This document shows positions 2,618 to 48,447 of a DNA stretch of 64,000 nucleotides, in pieces. Source of the stretch: Calditrichota bacterium (GTDB taxonomy: Bacteria; CLD3); NCBI GenBank assembly GCA_008501735.1, contig QQUF01000008.1, positions 124,001 to 188,000 of the forward strand, read 5' to 3'. The stretch's first letter is position 1, and each line of letters begins with the position of its first letter. The position numbers and the translations under genes were made by a program. The notes under the pieces are model-generated. The model saw nothing but the letters and a program-made list of their open reading frames with translations. It had not been told where the DNA came from and searched no databases.

Positions 2618-3298
2618 ATGAACTTCTCATTAAAAATTGTTGACGTTAAGTCAATCTATGAAATAAGCTCTTACTGGACTAATGAAGACTACGTTAGTTT
2701 GCTTGAGGAACTTGATTACTCAGATGCAAAAAGTGCTAGCCCTTCTGAACTTCGCGAGTTGTTAGAAATGGCAATTAGTGATTTTGAACCCAACGAATCG
2801 GCAGAAATTTTGCTCAAGTACAAACTTAAAGATTTTTTGACAAATGGACAGATTAAGAATCTTTCGCATGAAATGGTCGAGGACAATGAATCGGAAGAAT
2901 ATCCAAACATAGCTTTGCATTACCCTTTGTTTAATATTAACCAACTTCTTTACAGTTCTTACAACGGAACATTCCAAAAAGCCAAAGCTACTAAAATTGA
3001 GTTTGAGCTAATTTTTAAAGAAGAAAAAAATATCGTTGTAACTAAAGAACTTGCTTTAAAAGCATTAAGCAAAGGATTAAGTAACAAAATTCTTATGCAA
3101 AGGTTGTACGAAGACCAATTAAATGGAAAAGAAAAGTTTGTTGAAGCAGATAATGTAATTTGGGAATTGCATAACAACGGACAAAATAAATTCACAATCA
3201 TCACTTCAGATTATTGGATTAACGACGAAGACATAAATGAATACGAGTTTTCAGGCTCAATCAAAAAGTTTGAAGCTAAAAACCCAAAGCCAAATTAA
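2618..3298 (+). CDS. Unrecognised acidic 226-residue protein at the head of the DgcN/DgcA-like operon
   Basis: I do not recognise the family. The protein is soluble, with no signal peptide or membrane segment. It is acidic and rich in Glu, Asp, Asn and Leu, with a helical first half and a more strand-like second half (residues about 110-215). It ends only nine bases before the PLP-enzyme start, so it is probably the first gene of that operon. The codon use resembles the neighbours, and the ATG at 2618 follows an A+T-rich 121-base spacer. Function is unknown. Confidence 0.6.
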   Translation: MNFSLKIVDVKSIYEISSYWTNEDYVSLLEELDYSDAKSASPSELRELLEMAISDFEPNESAEILLKYKLKDFLTNGQIKNLSHEMVEDNESEEYPNIALHYPLFNINQLLYSSYNGTFQKAKATKIEFELIFKEEKNIVVTKELALKALSKGLSNKILMQRLYEDQLNGKEKFVEADNVIWELHNNGQNKFTIITSDYWINDEDINEYEFSGSIKKFEAKNPKPN

Positions 3299-3307
3299 AG
3301 TAAAAAA

Positions 3308-4375
3308 ATGAACATCAGAGATTTACTAAATACAGTTGATTACAAAGCCTCAAAAGAAACGAAAAGCCTTAGTGATTTCGTCAAAAACCCTGAAAACAAT
3401 CTTGTCGATAGATTGGAATCTTTTGAAGACATTATTAGTATCGAAGTTGGCGACACAGGTTTGTCTCGTGCAAAAAACCTTGAAAGAGATTACGAAATGC
3501 GTCAACTTTTCGTCAAAACTGAAGGCGACAATCCAACAGGAACTCAAAAAGACAGAATCGCTTTTGCACAAGTTTATGACGCACTCCGAAGAGATTATGG
3601 CACAATCAGTCTTGCAACTTGCGGAAATTACGGTTCCGCTTTGGCTTTGGCGACAAATCTCGCAGGAATCAAATGCAAGATTTTCATTCCCGAATCTTAC
3701 CACACAGTAAGAGTTAAAGAAATGGAAAGTAACGGAAGCGAAATTATTCGCCTCAAAGGAAATTACGAAGAAGTCGTTCAGAAAAGCAGTGAACTTGCAA
3801 AAGAAAATGATTGGTACGACGCAAATCCGGGCGGAGCGAACACAGCTTTGCAAATTCTCGCTTACAGCCAAATTGCTTTTGAAATTTACGACCAACTAAG
3901 AGACGCTCCGAAAATTTGTGCTGTTCCGATTTCCAATGGAACTTTGCTTGCAGGAATTTACAGAGGTTTTGTTTCACTTTACAAACGTGGAAAGACTTCC
4001 CGAATCCCAAGTATGCTTGGAGCTTCTTCTGTAAGAAAAAATCCGATTGTTCACTCTTTCAACAAAGGGTTTGAGCATTGCGTTGACTTAGAACCCGAAA
4101 AAATCAAAGAAACGGTTTTCAATGAGCCGCTAATAAATTGGCATAGTTTTGACGGCGAAGAAGCTCTTTACGCAATTAGAACGAGTAACGGAAGTGCCTT
4201 TAACGTCAGCGATAACGAAATGAAAAATATGTCAAAATATTTACTGACAAAAGAATCAAAAAGTATTTTACCTGCTTCGACTGCGGGACTAATCGGTTTG
4301 TTAAAATTGCATACAAAAGCCGAATTGGAACCTGACAGGTACGTTGCAATTTTAACAGCTAAAAATTCAAAATAA
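3308..4375 (+). CDS. PLP-dependent threonine-synthase-like enzyme
   Basis: A 355-residue fold-type II PLP enzyme. The PLP lysine is K81 in NPTGTQKDR, equivalent to the NPTGSFKDR of threonine synthase. ATCGNYGSALA (from about residue 103) is the substrate/cofactor loop, and a glycine-rich phosphate loop lies further on. The length fits threonine synthase or cysteine synthase relatives. The immediate partners, a DUF1611 protein 13 bases on and an enolase-superfamily epimerase, argue against simple threonine synthesis. I infer a side role in D-amino-acid or dipeptide metabolism. The exact reaction is unknown. Confidence 0.8.
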   Translation: MNIRDLLNTVDYKASKETKSLSDFVKNPENNLVDRLESFEDIISIEVGDTGLSRAKNLERDYEMRQLFVKTEGDNPTGTQKDRIAFAQVYDALRRDYGTISLATCGNYGSALALATNLAGIKCKIFIPESYHTVRVKEMESNGSEIIRLKGNYEEVVQKSSELAKENDWYDANPGGANTALQILAYSQIAFEIYDQLRDAPKICAVPISNGTLLAGIYRGFVSLYKRGKTSRIPSMLGASSVRKNPIVHSFNKGFEHCVDLEPEKIKETVFNEPLINWHSFDGEEALYAIRTSNGSAFNVSDNEMKNMSKYLLTKESKSILPASTAGLIGLLKLHTKAELEPDRYVAILTAKNSK

Positions 4376-4388
4376 GAGAAATTTAAAA

Positions 4389-5462
4389 ATGAAAAATCGA
4401 ATTGATGGAAACGCTTTAGTTTTTTGCGAAGGTGCTTTTAACACGCCAAACGGAAAAACTGCTCACGGTTTAGTAAGGTTCACTGAAAGATATTCTGTTC
4501 TTGGAGTCATTGACAGCAAACACTCAGGAAAAGATTCTGGTGAAGTTTTGGACGACAAAAAAAATGGCATTCCAATTTTTGAGAACTTCGACAAAGCCTA
4601 CAACTTTTTTGCAAAAACAGAAACTAAACCAACTCATTTTGTCGTTGGATTAGCACCTGACGGAGGAAGACTTCCGAAAGAAGCAAAAGCAAGTATTAAA
4701 TCTGCACTGAAACTCGGTCTTGACGTTGATTCAGGTTTGCACGATTTTTTGACAAACGACTCGGAATTAGTTGAATTAGCAAAAACTCACAACTGCAAAA
4801 TTAGAGACGTAAGGAAAACTCCGGATAGAGACCAACTTCACTTTTTCACAGGAGACATTGAAAAAGTGAATTGCCTAAAAATTGCGATTCTCGGAACTGA
4901 TTCTGCAATCGGAAAACGTACAACTTCTTGGCTAATTGTCCACGAAATGCGAAAAGCAGGTTACAAAGCAGAAATGGTTGGAACAGGACAAACCGCTTGG
5001 ATGCAAGGTGCAAAATATTCAATGATTATGGACAGTTGCATCAACGACTTCGTTTCAGGCGAAATTGAAAACGCCGTTGTAAATGCTTGGCGAAATGAAA
5101 ATCCTGATTTAATCGTTATCGAAGGACAAGGAAGTTTGATGAATCCTGCTTATCCGGGCGGATTTGAGATTCTTGCAGCAGGAAGACCTGATTTTGTTGT
5201 TTTGCAACACGCTCCGACAAGAACTGAATACGACGGTTTCCCAGGTTACAAACTTCATTCACTTGAAGAACAAATCAATGCAATCAAAGTCATTTCAGGC
5301 AAAGAAGTAATCGCAATTACTTTGAATCACGAGTTAATGACTGACGAAGAAATTTTGCCGACTTGTGAAAAAATTACAAAAGAAATTGGCTTGCCTTGTT
5401 TTGATGTTTTGAAATTCGGTGCTTCCGAATTAGTTAAAATTTTAATTGAAAAAAGACGTTAA
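4389..5462 (+). CDS. DUF1611 family protein, DgcN-like (probable D-glutamate N-acetyltransferase)
   Basis: A 357-residue DUF1611 protein with an N-terminal Rossmann-like half and a C-terminal P-loop half. The P-loop is GTDSAIGKRTT at residues 169-179, followed by EGQGSLMNPAYPGG. DUF1611 proteins paired with a dipeptide-epimerase-like enzyme have been described as DgcN, which N-acetylates D-glutamate, working with DgcA. Here the next gene is exactly such an epimerase, and its ATG follows this stop by overlapping one base, so the two are translationally coupled. I infer the DgcN role from family and partner; the substrate is not proved by sequence. Confidence 0.78.
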   Translation: MKNRIDGNALVFCEGAFNTPNGKTAHGLVRFTERYSVLGVIDSKHSGKDSGEVLDDKKNGIPIFENFDKAYNFFAKTETKPTHFVVGLAPDGGRLPKEAKASIKSALKLGLDVDSGLHDFLTNDSELVELAKTHNCKIRDVRKTPDRDQLHFFTGDIEKVNCLKIAILGTDSAIGKRTTSWLIVHEMRKAGYKAEMVGTGQTAWMQGAKYSMIMDSCINDFVSGEIENAVVNAWRNENPDLIVIEGQGSLMNPAYPGGFEILAAGRPDFVVLQHAPTRTEYDGFPGYKLHSLEEQINAIKVISGKEVIAITLNHELMTDEEILPTCEKITKEIGLPCFDVLKFGASELVKILIEKRR

Positions 5463-6532
5463 TGAAAATCACAAATGTTTCACTAAGACGCTTTGACCTT
5501 GAACTTTCTGAGCCTTACCAAATTGCTTATGAAACCGTTTACAGTGCAACAAATTTTATTTTGCAACTTGAAACCGATACAAAAATTATCGGTTTCGGTT
5601 GTGCTGCACCTGATTTTGTGGTTACAAAAGAAAAGCCCGAAGAAGTTGAAGAAGCCTTTCAAAATACTTTGCTTCCTGCACTGAAAGGAGCGAATCCTTT
5701 TCACTTTACAAAAATTATGCACGACTTGAAATTACAAAAGACAGTAAAATCTTCTGCTTTGGCGATGGTCGATATGGCTTTGTACGATTTAATTTCCAAA
5801 TTTTCGGGAGTTCCTTTGTACAAATTTCTCGGAGTTTATCGGGAAAGCATTCCGACAAGTGTAACGATTGGAATTTTGCCTTTTGAAGAAACGATGCAAA
5901 AAGCGAAAGAGTGGATTAACAAAGGATTTTTCATTCTTAAAATCAAAGGTGGTTTGGATTGGGAAGAAGATTTTCATAAACTCAAAACGCTTCGAGAAAG
6001 ATTCCCAAAACTAACTTTACGTTACGACGGAAATCAAGGTTTAACCTTAGTCCAAGCGTTAAATTTTTCAAAAGCAGTGGAAAATTTGGAAGTGGAAATT
6101 ATCGAACAACCGTTGTTAATTTCAGAAGAAAAACATTACTTTGATTTTAGTGAAAAGACTTCACAACCGATTATGGCGGACGAAAGTATTAAGACGCTCA
6201 AAGACACTTTTCGTTTGGCAAAAGACAATTTAGTGGATATGATTAATATTAAGTTGATGAAAGTTGGCGGAATCCAAGAGGCTTTTCACATTAATTCCGT
6301 CGCAAAATCCGCAGGTTACGAAGTGATGGTTGGTTGCTTAGACGAATGTCAGTTAGGAATTTCTGCCGGATTACACTTTGCACTTTCACGACCAAACATT
6401 GAATACGCAGATTTAGATAGTTTTTTAGATTTTAGCTCTGACCCTTTTAAAGATTTATTTTTTCTCAAAAATGGAATTTTGTATCCGAATGGAAAAAATG
6501 GATTAGGACTTGAGTCAAATTTTAAATTTTAA
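5462..6532 (+). CDS. Enolase-superfamily racemase/epimerase, DgcA-like (N-acetyl-D-glutamate racemase or L-Ala-D/L-Glu epimerase)
   Basis: A 356-residue muconate-lactonizing-type enolase-superfamily enzyme. The catalytic residues are all visible: K160 and K162 in the KIK motif, metal ligands D189 (RYDGNQG), E215 (EQPL) and D240 (ADES), and a second base near K264 to K267 (INIKLMK). The family includes L-Ala-D/L-Glu epimerase from murein recycling and the DgcA N-acetyl-D-glutamate racemase. Tight coupling to a DUF1611 gene favours the second, which would convert N-acetyl-D-glutamate to the L form. It starts on the last base of the upstream gene. The choice between the two activities is inference. 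Confidence 0.85.
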   Translation: MKITNVSLRRFDLELSEPYQIAYETVYSATNFILQLETDTKIIGFGCAAPDFVVTKEKPEEVEEAFQNTLLPALKGANPFHFTKIMHDLKLQKTVKSSALAMVDMALYDLISKFSGVPLYKFLGVYRESIPTSVTIGILPFEETMQKAKEWINKGFFILKIKGGLDWEEDFHKLKTLRERFPKLTLRYDGNQGLTLVQALNFSKAVENLEVEIIEQPLLISEEKHYFDFSEKTSQPIMADESIKTLKDTFRLAKDNLVDMINIKLMKVGGIQEAFHINSVAKSAGYEVMVGCLDECQLGISAGLHFALSRPNIEYADLDSFLDFSSDPFKDLFFLKNGILYPNGKNGLGLESNFKF

Positions 6533-6548
6533 AATGAAAGGTTAAAAA

Positions 6549-7073
6549 ATGGAATTTGAATTAAACAAATCAGTTGAAATTTTACAAAGAACCCCAAAGA
6601 TTTTACGAATTCTTCTCGGAAATCTTCCGATGGATTTGACTCACAAAAATGAAGGCGGTGATTCTTGGAGTGCGTTTGACATAATTGGACATTTAATTCA
6701 CGGCGAAAGGACAGATTGGGTTCCGAGAGCAAAAATTCTTTTAGGAAAAAATGAAACGAAAAAATTTGAACCTTTTGACAGATTTGCCCACTTTGAACTT
6801 AGCAAGGGAAAGTCGCTAAATGAGCTGATTACTCAATTTGAGAAATTAAGGTCAGGAAACATTGAGGAGGTCAAAAATTTAAGAATCTCAATTAATGATT
6901 TGGAACTCACAGGAATTCACCCTGAACTCGGAACAGTTACCTTAAAACAATTGTTTGCTACTTGGGTTGTTCACGATTTTAATCACATTTCACAAGTTTC
7001 AAGAGTTATGGCAAAACAATACAAAGATGAAGTCGGAGCTTGGGAAGCCTATTTAAGCATTTTACACCGATAA
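6549..7073 (+). CDS. DinB-like four-helix metal-binding protein
   Basis: A 174-residue DinB superfamily protein. The probable metal ligands are the histidines in GHLIHGERTDW (H48, H51) and in VVHDFNHISQ (H142, H146), the usual three-histidine arrangement of the fold. Members include thiol-dependent transferases (bacillithiol or mycothiol S-transferases) and many uncharacterised proteins. The gene starts 16 bases after the DgcA-like gene and is probably the last of that operon, since a strong hairpin terminator follows. The function is not deducible; a thiol-transferase or detoxification role is only a family-based guess. Confidence 0.8.
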   Translation: MEFELNKSVEILQRTPKILRILLGNLPMDLTHKNEGGDSWSAFDIIGHLIHGERTDWVPRAKILLGKNETKKFEPFDRFAHFELSKGKSLNELITQFEKLRSGNIEEVKNLRISINDLELTGIHPELGTVTLKQLFATWVVHDFNHISQVSRVMAKQYKDEVGAWEAYLSILHR

Positions 7074-7082
7074 AAAATTTTG

Positions 7083-7117
7083 ATTCACTCTTTCCGATTT
7101 GGTTAGAAAGAGTGAAT
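7083..7117. terminator. Bidirectional hairpin terminator between convergent genes
   Basis: Perfect 12-base inverted repeat, ATTCACTCTTTC and GAAAGAGTGAAT, with an 11-base loop. It lies between the DinB stop (7073) and the lipoprotein stop (7125, opposite strand). On the minus strand the stem is followed by CAAAATTTTTT, a good U tract; on the plus strand it is followed by TATATTTCT. Confidence 0.85.
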
Positions 7118-7124
7118 TATATTT

Positions 7125-43609: not shown

Positions 43610-44839
43610 ATGCCGATTTTTGATTCATTAATAAATCCAATTCCACCGATTCGGAGAGGAGTTCAAGCCGCTTCTTTCCAAAATGAAAATGGCGAAAACT
43701 CTTACGTCCTTTACGATTCGGAAGGTTACACGGAAAAACAATTAATTATGGCTGTCGAAGCATTTCCAATTTTACAGCTTTTCGATGGTAAAAATTCAGT
43801 CGAGTCGATAATCAAAAAACTGACTGAAGATTCAGGGGTTGAAATCGAAGAAAGTTTAATTTTAGGTTTTGCCCAACAACTTGATGAATGCTACTTTTTG
43901 GTAAGTGAAAATTTTAAAGAATTCAGAGACAAAGAAGAACAAGAGTTCATCGAAAGCAAAATCAGAACCTCCGTTTGTGCAGGAAATTCTTATTCGGACA
44001 AAAGAGAAGAACTTACAAAATTTTTCGAAAATCTTTTTGCCAAAGACAAATCAACTCCAAGTGAAGAAAAACCGCTTGGAATCGTTGTTCCTCACATTGA
44101 CTTGAGAATCGGAGCGGAAACTTACGTTCCTGCTTACAAAGAATTACAGAATTCAGAGGCAGAAACTTTCGTAATTTTCGGAACTTCACACTACGGTTAC
44201 GGCGACCTTTTTGTCCCAACTTCCAAAGATTTTGTAACACCTTTTGGAACTGTTGAAACTGACTCTGAACTTGTTGAACTTTTGCAGAAAAATTATCCTT
44301 TTCCTGCTCATTTTAAAGACTTGGCTCATAGACAAGAACACTCGATTGAGTTTCAAGTTTTATTTTTGCAACACGTTTTTAAAAACAGACCTTTTAAAAT
44401 TTTGCCAATCCTTTGCACCTCATTTTTCGGTTTTATGGACAAAGGAATTTCGCCAAAAAATGAAGAAATTTTTTCCTCTTTCACAAAAGCCTTAAACAAA
44501 GGAATAACTGAAACAGGAAGAAAAGTAAATTACATCGTTAGTGCAGACCTTGCTCACGTCGGCAAAAAGTTTGGCGATGAATTTCCTGCAAAAGAAATTT
44601 TGGAAAAACTCAAAAACGAAGACCAAAGCATTTTGGATTCGGCAGTTAGTTGCCAAGCAGAAGATTTTTATCAAAAAATTAGTGCTGTAAAAGACGAAAG
44701 ACGAATTTGTGGACTTCCACCAATTTACAGTTTCCTTGAAACAGCTAAGCCAAAAAGCGGAAAAATTTTAGCTTACGACCAATGGGACGAAGCTGAAAGA
44801 GAATCAGCTGTAACCTACGCAAGTGCAGTTTTTTACTAA
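43610..44839 (+). CDS. MEMO-family protein (AmmeMemoRadiSam system B-like) with an N-terminal PqqD-like extension
   Basis: A 409-residue protein. The C-terminal two-thirds is the MEMO fold, with LGIVVPHIDLRIG, VIFGTSHYGYG, HRQEHSIEFQVLFL and YIVSADLAHVGKKFGDE carrying the usual conserved histidines. Residues about 50-115 (LQLFDGKNSVESIIKKL to FAQQLDECYFL) resemble a PqqD-like or winged-helix binding domain. MEMO genes often stand with AMMECR1 and radical-SAM partners, but neither is present here. The metal-dependent reaction is not established. Confidence 0.85.
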   Translation: MPIFDSLINPIPPIRRGVQAASFQNENGENSYVLYDSEGYTEKQLIMAVEAFPILQLFDGKNSVESIIKKLTEDSGVEIEESLILGFAQQLDECYFLVSENFKEFRDKEEQEFIESKIRTSVCAGNSYSDKREELTKFFENLFAKDKSTPSEEKPLGIVVPHIDLRIGAETYVPAYKELQNSEAETFVIFGTSHYGYGDLFVPTSKDFVTPFGTVETDSELVELLQKNYPFPAHFKDLAHRQEHSIEFQVLFLQHVFKNRPFKILPILCTSFFGFMDKGISPKNEEIFSSFTKALNKGITETGRKVNYIVSADLAHVGKKFGDEFPAKEILEKLKNEDQSILDSAVSCQAEDFYQKISAVKDERRICGLPPIYSFLETAKPKSGKILAYDQWDEAERESAVTYASAVFY

Positions 44840-46339: not shown

Positions 46340-47083
46340 ATGACAAAAATGATAGAAAAAGCACCTTACACTTCAATCGCAAAAATCTACGATTACCTAA
46401 TGGAAGACGTTGATTACAAAATTTGGATGGACTTGATTGAAGAAATTTTTGCACACTTTAAAACAGAGCCTAAAACGATTCTCGAACTCGGTTGCGGAAC
46501 GGGAAGTATTTGTGTCGAACTTGAAAGTCGAGGTTACAAAATGACAGGAATTGACCTTGCTGCTGAAATGATTGATTTTGCAAAAACAAAAAGCGATTCG
46601 GTTAATTTTCAAGTTGGAGATATGCGAAATTTTAGCTTTGAAGAAAAGTTCGATTCAGCTTTGTGTTTGTTCGACAGCATAAATTACGTTCACACTTTGG
46701 AGGAAATTTCACAGGTTTTAGACAAGACTTACGAGGTTTTGAAAGAAGGTGGAATTTTCATTTTTGACATTTCCACAGAAGTAAATTCTATTCAAAATTT
46801 TAATGGCTACTACGAAGCAGACCAATTTGAAGGTTTTGAATACACTTTTGAAAGTTTCTACTTACGAAGCGACAAAATGCACTTGAACCAAATCACCGTT
46901 GAACACCCTGATTTTGCCGAAACTTACATTGAAAAACATTATCAAAAAGTTTATAAAACAGAAGAACTTCAAGAAATTCTTGAAAAAAGTAAATTTGAAA
47001 TTCTTGGAGTCTTTGACGGCTTTGAGATTGAAGAAGCTACCAAAGAATCTGCACGAGTAAACTTTGTTTTAAGGAAGAAGTAA
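46340..47083 (+). CDS. Class I SAM-dependent methyltransferase
   Basis: A 247-residue Methyltransf_25-type protein. SAM motif I is ILELGCGTGSICVELE at about residues 51-66, then MTGIDLAAEMIDFAK and the DSALCLFDSINYV segment. The substrate is unknown. A second ATG at 46349 could be the start. Its stop overlaps the rlmD start by one base, so the pair is translationally coupled. Confidence 0.85.
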   Translation: MTKMIEKAPYTSIAKIYDYLMEDVDYKIWMDLIEEIFAHFKTEPKTILELGCGTGSICVELESRGYKMTGIDLAAEMIDFAKTKSDSVNFQVGDMRNFSFEEKFDSALCLFDSINYVHTLEEISQVLDKTYEVLKEGGIFIFDISTEVNSIQNFNGYYEADQFEGFEYTFESFYLRSDKMHLNQITVEHPDFAETYIEKHYQKVYKTEELQEILEKSKFEILGVFDGFEIEEATKESARVNFVLRKK

Positions 47084-48447
47084 TGCCAAATTTTTTAAAC
47101 CAAATTCACGAAATAAAAATTGATTCTCAAGAGCATTTCAAAGGAAACGGAGTCGGAAGAATTGAAGATTTTGTGGTTTTTGTAAACGGAGCTGTCGAAG
47201 GCGATGTCGTAAATGCAAAAATTACAGAATCGAAAAAGACTTACGGAAACGCACAAATTACAAAAATTGTAAAACCTTCACCTCACAGAATTGTTCCTGA
47301 ATGTGAAGTTTACAGAAAATGTGGTGGTTGCTCTTTTCTCCAAATTGATTACGATTTTCAGCTTGAAACAAAGGAGAAATTTTTAAAGGAGGCATTGCAA
47401 AAAATTGGGAAATTTGACCTTAAGAATTTATCAATTGAAAAAATTGTTTGTGCTGAAGAACCTCTTTTTTACCGCAATAAAATTATTCAACCTGTTGGTT
47501 TAGAAGACGGAAAACTTATTTCAGGTTTTTACAAACAGAACTCACATAAAATTGTTGATTTTGACAAGTGTTACATTCAACCTGAAATTTCAAATAAGAT
47601 TGTAAATTTGGTAAAATCTTGGGCTTCAAAATCCAAGACTCCAATTTATAACGAGGAAAAGAAAAGCGGAGTTTTGAGGAGCATTTTCTTAAGAATTAAC
47701 AGAGAGCAAACAGAGGTTGTGGTTTGCCTTGTTACTAAAGGTAAAAAATTACCATTTTGGAAAACATTGCTTCAAGAACTCACAGATAATTTTCCTCAAG
47801 TTGTTGGCTTAGTCCAAAACTTCAATTCTACAGACGGGAACAATGTTTTGTCTGAGAATTTCAACACACTTTGGGGACGAGATTATATTTTCGAGAATCT
47901 TGGTAAAACGAAATTCAAAGTCTCGATTGGTTCATTTTTCCAAGTCAACTCTGCTCAAACAGTTTTACTTTACAATTTGGTTAAGGAATTTTGTAATTTA
48001 AGCGGAACTGAAAAATTACTCGATGTTTACTGTGGACTTGGCTCAATAGGAATTTATTTGGCAGACAAAGCCGAAGAAGTTGTTGGAGTTGAGGTTTCTT
48101 CTCAAGCGATTAAAGATGCTGACTTCAATGCAGACTTGAATGAACTTGAAAATTGTGATTTTTACTGTGGAAAAGTGGAAGAAGTTTTGCCACAACTTTT
48201 AGAGCAAGAAAAGCATTTTGAAGTTGTCATTGTTGACCCTCCACGAAAAGGGCTTTCTACTGAAACAATCGAAGTAATTTCAGATTTTAATCCTGAAAAG
48301 ATTATTTACGTTTCTTGCAACCCTACAACTTTAGCAAGAGATTTAAGACTCTTTACAGAAAAGGGTTTCTCAATTAAAAAAATTACTCCCGTAGACTTGT
48401 TTCCACAAACTCATCACTGCGAAGCAGTCTGCTTGTTAGAAAAATAA
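47083..48447 (+). CDS. rlmD: 23S rRNA (uracil-C5)-methyltransferase, RlmD/TrmA family
   Basis: A 454-residue protein with an N-terminal TRAM-type domain. The iron-sulfur cysteines are C74, C80 and C83 (CEVYRKCGGC) and a fourth in DKCYIQPE. SAM-binding is LLDVYCGLGSIGIYLA, VIVDPPRKGL follows, and the catalytic cysteine lies in YVSCNPTTLARDL. It methylates uridine in ribosomal RNA (or tRNA in related enzymes); the iron-sulfur form points to RlmD or a close relative. Coupled to the upstream methyltransferase. Confidence 0.9.
   Translation: MPNFLNQIHEIKIDSQEHFKGNGVGRIEDFVVFVNGAVEGDVVNAKITESKKTYGNAQITKIVKPSPHRIVPECEVYRKCGGCSFLQIDYDFQLETKEKFLKEALQKIGKFDLKNLSIEKIVCAEEPLFYRNKIIQPVGLEDGKLISGFYKQNSHKIVDFDKCYIQPEISNKIVNLVKSWASKSKTPIYNEEKKSGVLRSIFLRINREQTEVVVCLVTKGKKLPFWKTLLQELTDNFPQVVGLVQNFNSTDGNNVLSENFNTLWGRDYIFENLGKTKFKVSIGSFFQVNSAQTVLLYNLVKEFCNLSGTEKLLDVYCGLGSIGIYLADKAEEVVGVEVSSQAIKDADFNADLNELENCDFYCGKVEEVLPQLLEQEKHFEVVIVDPPRKGLSTETIEVISDFNPEKIIYVSCNPTTLARDLRLFTEKGFSIKKITPVDLFPQTHHCEAVCLLEK

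Follow-up and report, generated by a model that had tools for sequence, protein, structure and literature searches.

The locus described here lies in a 64-kb stretch of contig QQUF01000008.1 of a Calditrichota bacterium, hereafter the window, whose coordinates are used throughout, and consists of a plus-strand operon that includes an enzyme dependent on pyridoxal phosphate (PLP). This enzyme, of fold type II and threonine-synthase-like (hereafter PALP; 3308-4375, 355 residues, NCBIfam NF004996), is followed after 13 bp by a DUF1611 protein (4389-5462, 357 residues), which has a Rossmann-like N-terminal and a P-loop C-terminal domain, is DgcN-like and belongs to a clade of its own. The third gene encodes an enolase-superfamily epimerase of the dipeptide-epimerase type with its set of catalytic residues (5462-6532, 356 residues), and the fourth, 16 bp further on, a DinB_2-family protein recognised by Pfam (6549-7073, 174 residues). 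An earlier interpretation made from the letters alone (the sequence-only reading) had placed these four genes at 3308-7073 on the plus strand, and both their positions and their family membership are confirmed, with Pfam scores of 1.1e-53 for PALP, 2.3e-65 and 4.5e-25 for the C- and N-terminal domains of DUF1611, 8.9e-40 and 3.2e-12 for the C- and N-terminal MR_MLE domains of the epimerase, and 9.9e-12 for DinB_2. The one-base overlap said to couple the DUF1611 and epimerase genes is real, the stop codon of the former and the ATG of the latter having base 5462 in common. The PLP gene had also been taken to lead the operon; here, a 226-residue open reading frame on the same strand (2618-3298), with no family at E ≤ 0.001 in Pfam or NCBIfam, ends 9 bp upstream, so that the operon may begin ahead of PALP. 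Because of this reading frame, which probably heads the unit, and of a strong hairpin between convergent genes past the DinB gene (7081-7119, plus strand, -17.7 kcal/mol, z -5.4), the transcription unit probably spans 2618-7073. The fold energy of the hairpin makes it a likely terminator; a consensus terminator scan did not flag it.

The threonine-synthase-like character attributed to the PLP enzyme is borne out by its predicted structure (mean predicted local distance difference test score, pLDDT, 91), whose nearest folds are threonine synthases (Z 35.6, 2.0 Å over 301 residues, 24% identity), followed by TrpB (Z 31.5). The predicted Schiff-base lysine is K81, the counterpart of the lysine in the FKDRG motif of threonine synthases. 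The R-x-E-G-Q-K-T stretch of the aligned solved bacterial threonine synthases (ThrC), which we take to bind phosphate, reads Q-x-x-A-Y-x-E/Q in the PALP family, with the motif arginine aligned with Q182 in 84 of 85 PALP rows and the motif glutamine with Y186 in all 85. PALP scores 411 bits against NF004996, named 'threonine synthase' (cut-off 266), and 103.2 bits against the standard ThrC model TIGR00260, below its cut-off of 167.1. Matches to NF004996 are rare: at E ≤ 1e-60 they occur in 8 of 386 genomes (six of them above the cut-off) and in none of 14 control genomes, all 14 of which have a protein above the TIGR00260 cut-off. On comparison of sequences, PALP constitutes a distinct family that is related to threonine synthase and is not the threonine synthase of the cell.

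The reading that PALP nevertheless makes the threonine of its own genome, as the NF004996 label says, could draw on the score for that model, on the fold and on the fact that no other ThrC above the TIGR00260 cut-off is present in that genome. The sequence-only reading was to be overturned by precisely this case, PALP being an ordinary threonine synthase with no other in the genome; no other is indeed present, but the ordinary role is not upheld. The homoserine dehydrogenase domain (PF00742) is found in none of nine genomes, namely this one and eight relatives of its class, versus all 14 controls, and homoserine kinase (thrB) is above the curated cut-off in none of the same nine, so that the usual ThrC substrate would not be made in this class. 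Moreover, a canonical ThrC, above the TIGR00260 cut-off, coexists with PALP in 42 of 46 PALP-carrying genomes, the exceptions being the present genome, G214, G344 and G408. This coexistence, the missing homoserine genes, the TIGR00260 score and the loss of the ThrC motif speak against a housekeeping threonine synthase, and we consider the label-based reading highly improbable; PALP almost certainly does not make threonine and serves an undescribed amino-acid pathway. The curated name of NF004996 looks wrong, these proteins mostly sharing a genome with a real ThrC in the carriers tested. As a separate observation, the lack of homoserine dehydrogenase and of an above-cut-off homoserine kinase, in a class whose genomes are otherwise near-complete, suggests threonine auxotrophy.

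When a six-row PALP alignment was run against 84,980 species genomes, 307 pattern matches came up, 254 of which encode a relative. The loci of the best 80 of these 254, that is the nearest third, were surveyed, and 57 of the 80 are well covered, with at least 3 kb upstream and at least 5.6 kb downstream of PALP. The gene set is rare yet widely scattered over about ten phyla, the record titles naming marine Bacteroidota, Balneola, Zixibacteria, Ignavibacteria, Calditrichota, Latescibacterota, Gemmatimonadota, Acidobacteriota, Planctomycetes, Spirochaetes and deltaproteobacterial lineages. Whether the PLP gene travels with the DUF1611/racemase pair, a survey that had been proposed from the sequence alone, can be answered in the affirmative: DUF1611 lies near PALP in 53 of the 57 well-covered loci and an epimerase in 47, all of which also have DUF1611. 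A PP-loop protein is near PALP in 36 of them and a creatininase-family protein in 34. The DUF1611 protein and the epimerase are near-constant partners of the PLP enzyme, to which many relatives add a predicted PP-loop ATPase and a creatininase-family hydrolase. The usual, long order (PALP, DUF1611, PP-loop/creatininase, often as a single fused protein, then epimerase) is found in 30 one-strand loci, one of which has DUF1611 ahead of PALP, and a short order (PALP, DUF1611, epimerase), to which the operon of the window belongs, in 14. Beyond these five parts, the most recurrent family is present in only 14 of 86 loci, lies mostly on the opposite strand and includes a sigma-54-activator member, so that a transporter or oxidase common to the loci is not seen. 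The DinB gene that the sequence-only reading placed at the end of the operon is indeed present, but it is a local addition: of the 85 loci compared, just L080 has a homologue, at a distance of 3.3 kb and on the other strand. Homologues of the 226-residue reading frame flank the PALP operon in two other genomes (L043 and L046) and occur in five PALP-bearing genomes besides this one, that of L043 among them; all eight class relatives lack one. No viral relatives of PALP were found, and its plasmid relatives all fall below 60% identity, ten being listed at 26-28%. No description of the PALP/DUF1611/epimerase set was found in the literature searched, most subscription journals lying outside the reach of that search. 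We are dealing with a compact, enzyme-only gene set of three to five soluble proteins, whose order is kept across these phyla and which appears to have been passed between them.

The operon of the window was likely acquired from marine Bacteroidota, because PALP is absent from all eight class relatives, PALP and DUF1611 group with proteins of Bacteroidota, and rlmD of the same window follows its own lineage. In the tree, PALP and its counterparts from Lewinella cohaerens and two Bacteroidia metagenome-assembled genomes make up a four-member clade (support of 99% in the Shimodaira-Hasegawa-like approximate likelihood-ratio test, SH-aLRT; identities of 80, 78 and 77%), and the DUF1611 protein is 79% identical to that of one of these two (L023). 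The rlmD product (47083-48447) is 60% identical to that of a same-family genome and 33-39% identical over most of its length to those elsewhere, with short fragments reaching 42%, so that the contig agrees with its lineage and contamination was rejected. The GC content does not stand out. Elsewhere in the window, positions 43610-44839 encode a homologue of MEMO1/AmmeMemoRadiSam system protein B.

The P-loop of the DUF1611 protein (GTDSA-GKRTT) is kept in all 73 rows of an alignment drawn from 75 sequences found, two of outlying length being omitted. In the family tree, the operon proteins group in one clade (74 rows, SH-aLRT 99), joined by two copies that PALP-bearing genomes carry on other contigs. 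Its sister groups adjoin another epimerase or an enzyme of the alanine/ornithine-racemase family, the latter on plasmids of Phaeobacter, Ruegeria and Vibrio; on the marine plasmids NZ_CP016367 (L107), NZ_CP081104 (L112) and NZ_AP025501 (L108), the DUF1611 gene overlaps the racemase-family gene. A domain of unknown function is thereby placed in several distinct amino-acid-inverting settings, which makes its chemistry approachable. The notion that DUF1611 always accompanies a racemase is ruled out, several relatives having other neighbours. The true DgcN of Sphingobium is far off in the tree, on a long branch whose position is unsure. The link to D-glutamate that had been drawn from a resemblance to the DgcN/DgcA pair is not supported, and strictly speaking the two proteins are no DgcN/DgcA pair: the DUF1611 protein scores 164 bits against the DgcN model NF041892 (cut-off 480), the epimerase scores 130 bits against the DgcA model NF042940 (cut-off 400), and the epimerase position matching Arg24 of YkfB is acidic.

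The epimerase alignment comprises 57 rows from 62 sequences found, short or weak ones having been omitted, and the catalytic set K160xK162, D189, E215, D240, K264 and D317xD319 is invariant throughout; the KxK motif, the second catalytic lysine, the three metal ligands and the DxD of the dipeptide-epimerase type are each present in every one of the 57 rows. YkfB has Arg at position 24, where it presumably serves the glutamate side chain, Sphingobium DgcA apparently has Arg as well, and the sister epimerases have Lys; the residue is Glu in 56 rows of the present family and Asp in one. Two other acidic positions are D51 (55 of 57 rows) and D294 (all 57). It can be proposed with moderate confidence that the side-chain pocket is shifted away from glutamate, perhaps toward a basic residue, and E24, D51 and D294 together suggest that the side chain of the inverted residue would be basic, or polar and uncharged, and not that of glutamate. 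The DxD motif binds the amine of a dipeptide; since DgcA has it too, it is no arbiter between dipeptides and N-acyl amino acids.

The two companions of the long form lie, in most loci, between DUF1611 and the epimerase, and are often fused. The PP-loop protein contains the motifs SSGGKDS and PCGxCEKCRR, and its model (pLDDT 91) resembles QatC (Z 14.4 over 319 residues), QueC (Z 13.5) and Cap9 (Z 12.2); in Pfam, there is no match to PF06508 (QueC) at E ≤ 1, and only weak matches such as DUF6395 are seen. Cap9 couples a deazaguanine acid to a protein N-terminus (PMC13279940). The creatininase part is closest to the mycofactocin peptidase model MftE, at 149 bits for a cut-off of 172. Enzymes of the QueC family activate carboxylates and convert them to amides or nitriles, and this chemistry, together with the reaction of Cap9, lends support by analogy, though not proof, to an amide-forming step in the long form. 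MurL was rejected as a candidate, its model matching the fused PP-loop/creatininase protein (L014) only in part, at 18.5 bits, and so was a defence system, seven proteins having no PADLOC match except for a 14-bit chance match of the 226-residue reading frame. Within the genome studied, a fused-protein query found no PP-loop/creatininase protein elsewhere, and a 10-row profile, which matched 6 positive genomes, found no PP-loop protein. By this profile, 16 of 22 PALP-bearing genomes, this one included and most of them picked for local absence, have no such protein anywhere, so that the short and long forms are both whole-genome states. The proteins at L014:10304-12724 and L025:12203-13711 and their homologues are, in their own right, QatC/QueC-like PP-loop proteins outside Pfam that are often fused to a creatininase.

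We propose, giving the proposal an even chance, that the operon represents, in its short form, an amino-acid pathway not described before, which epimerises an N-acylated amino acid, and we favour a biosynthetic direction, in which a D-configured or N-acylated amino acid would be made. The PLP enzyme would carry out, through K81, a beta- or gamma-elimination or replacement that gives (or consumes) a particular L-amino acid, the DUF1611 protein, with ATP or acyl-CoA in its P-loop, would transfer an acyl or aminoacyl group onto an amine, and the epimerase would invert the carbon adjoining the carboxylate by means of two lysines (K162, K264). The PP-loop enzyme that the long form adds probably makes a carboxylate adenylate and from it an amide, and the creatininase-type hydrolase would open an amide. 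The product would be an amino acid in the D configuration or a small dipeptide containing a D residue. A fuller version is more speculative, and we hold it to be rather doubtful: a five-part pathway, present in about 0.3% of sequenced prokaryote species and spending ATP to invert an amino acid, in which the PLP enzyme would make an unusual amino acid, DUF1611 and the QatC-like PP-loop enzyme would build an amide, the dipeptide epimerase would invert it and the creatininase-family enzyme would free the D-product. If this were true, the product could be, for instance, a marine osmolyte, a signal or an antibiotic-like dipeptide. Several observations weigh against the proposal. PALP is without any partner in 2 of the 57 well-covered loci, and 2 others have the PP-loop and creatininase proteins with no DUF1611 or epimerase nearby, so that the parts are separable. 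Some DUF1611 relatives have no adjoining racemase. The solved epimerase 3rit, which we take to be a cationic-dipeptide epimerase, carries Glu at position 51 and shares the C-M-D-E stretch, yet also has Arg at 24, so that the substrate charge cannot be read from position 24 alone. Finally, sequence data cannot prove the reaction of DUF1611.

The opposite direction is a possible but less probable account of the same genes: a D-amino acid or D-containing dipeptide would be catabolised in parallel to DgcN/DgcA, by N-acylation of the D form, racemisation to L, deacylation and breakdown by elimination or deamination on the PLP enzyme. Serine/threonine dehydratases have the same PLP fold as PALP, and the company kept by related pairs also speaks for catabolism, as the Sphingobium dgcN/dgcA pair occurs with a dicarboxylate/amino-acid symporter, a DUF1611-racemase pair of Haladaptatus with a D-aminoacylase, and a further DUF1611 relative beside a Na:alanine symporter. 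Near PALP, however, no common transporter or oxidase is seen among the recurrent families, the DgcN and DgcA scores fall short of their cut-offs, and the presence of a PP-loop enzyme in the long form suggests ATP-driven bond synthesis. It is far less probable that the operon recycles cell-wall peptides, with the epimerase acting as an L-Ala-D/L-Glu epimerase and the other genes using the released amino acids. The top NCBIfam model of the epimerase is indeed that of L-Ala-D/L-Glu epimerase (216 bits, below the cut-off of 500), and YkfB (1jpm) is its closest solved sequence by phmmer, but the Arg24 of YkfB, whose role we presume, is replaced by an acidic residue in all 57 rows, the sister epimerases have Lys at that position, and the operon has no additional recurrent family, for example of peptidases.

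The proposed biosynthetic pathway can be set beside four known groups of proteins. PALP shares with the solved threonine synthases (2zsj, 6cgq, 1uim and 2d1f) the fold type II, the Schiff-base lysine, a Z of about 35 and 24-27% identity, and differs in the replaced R-x-EGQKT stretch, the score below the TIGR00260 cut-off and the coexistence with a real ThrC. The epimerase aligns over its full length with the dipeptide epimerases 1jpm (YkfB), 3jva, 3rit and 3q45, with which it has the catalytic lysines, metal ligands and DxD in common, whereas it forms a subfamily of its own with an acidic position 24, encoded in an operon without a recurring peptidase. The PP-loop companion of the long form resembles the QueC/QatC/Cap9 family in its SGGKDS loop, its C-x2-C-x2-C motif and its Z of 14.4 to QatC, and departs from it in lacking a Pfam QueC match and a PADLOC match, in its identity of about 10% to QatC and in its frequent fusion to a creatininase. 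The closest parallel in gene arrangement is provided by the DgcN/DgcA pair (NF041892 and NF042940; Sphingobium), in which a DUF1611 P-loop protein is likewise followed directly by an enolase-superfamily racemase and DxD is present as well. In contrast to that system, the pair in the window lies far below both cut-offs and has Glu where DgcA has an Arg near position 24, and the operon adds a PLP enzyme, which in its relatives is often joined by the PP-loop and creatininase proteins.

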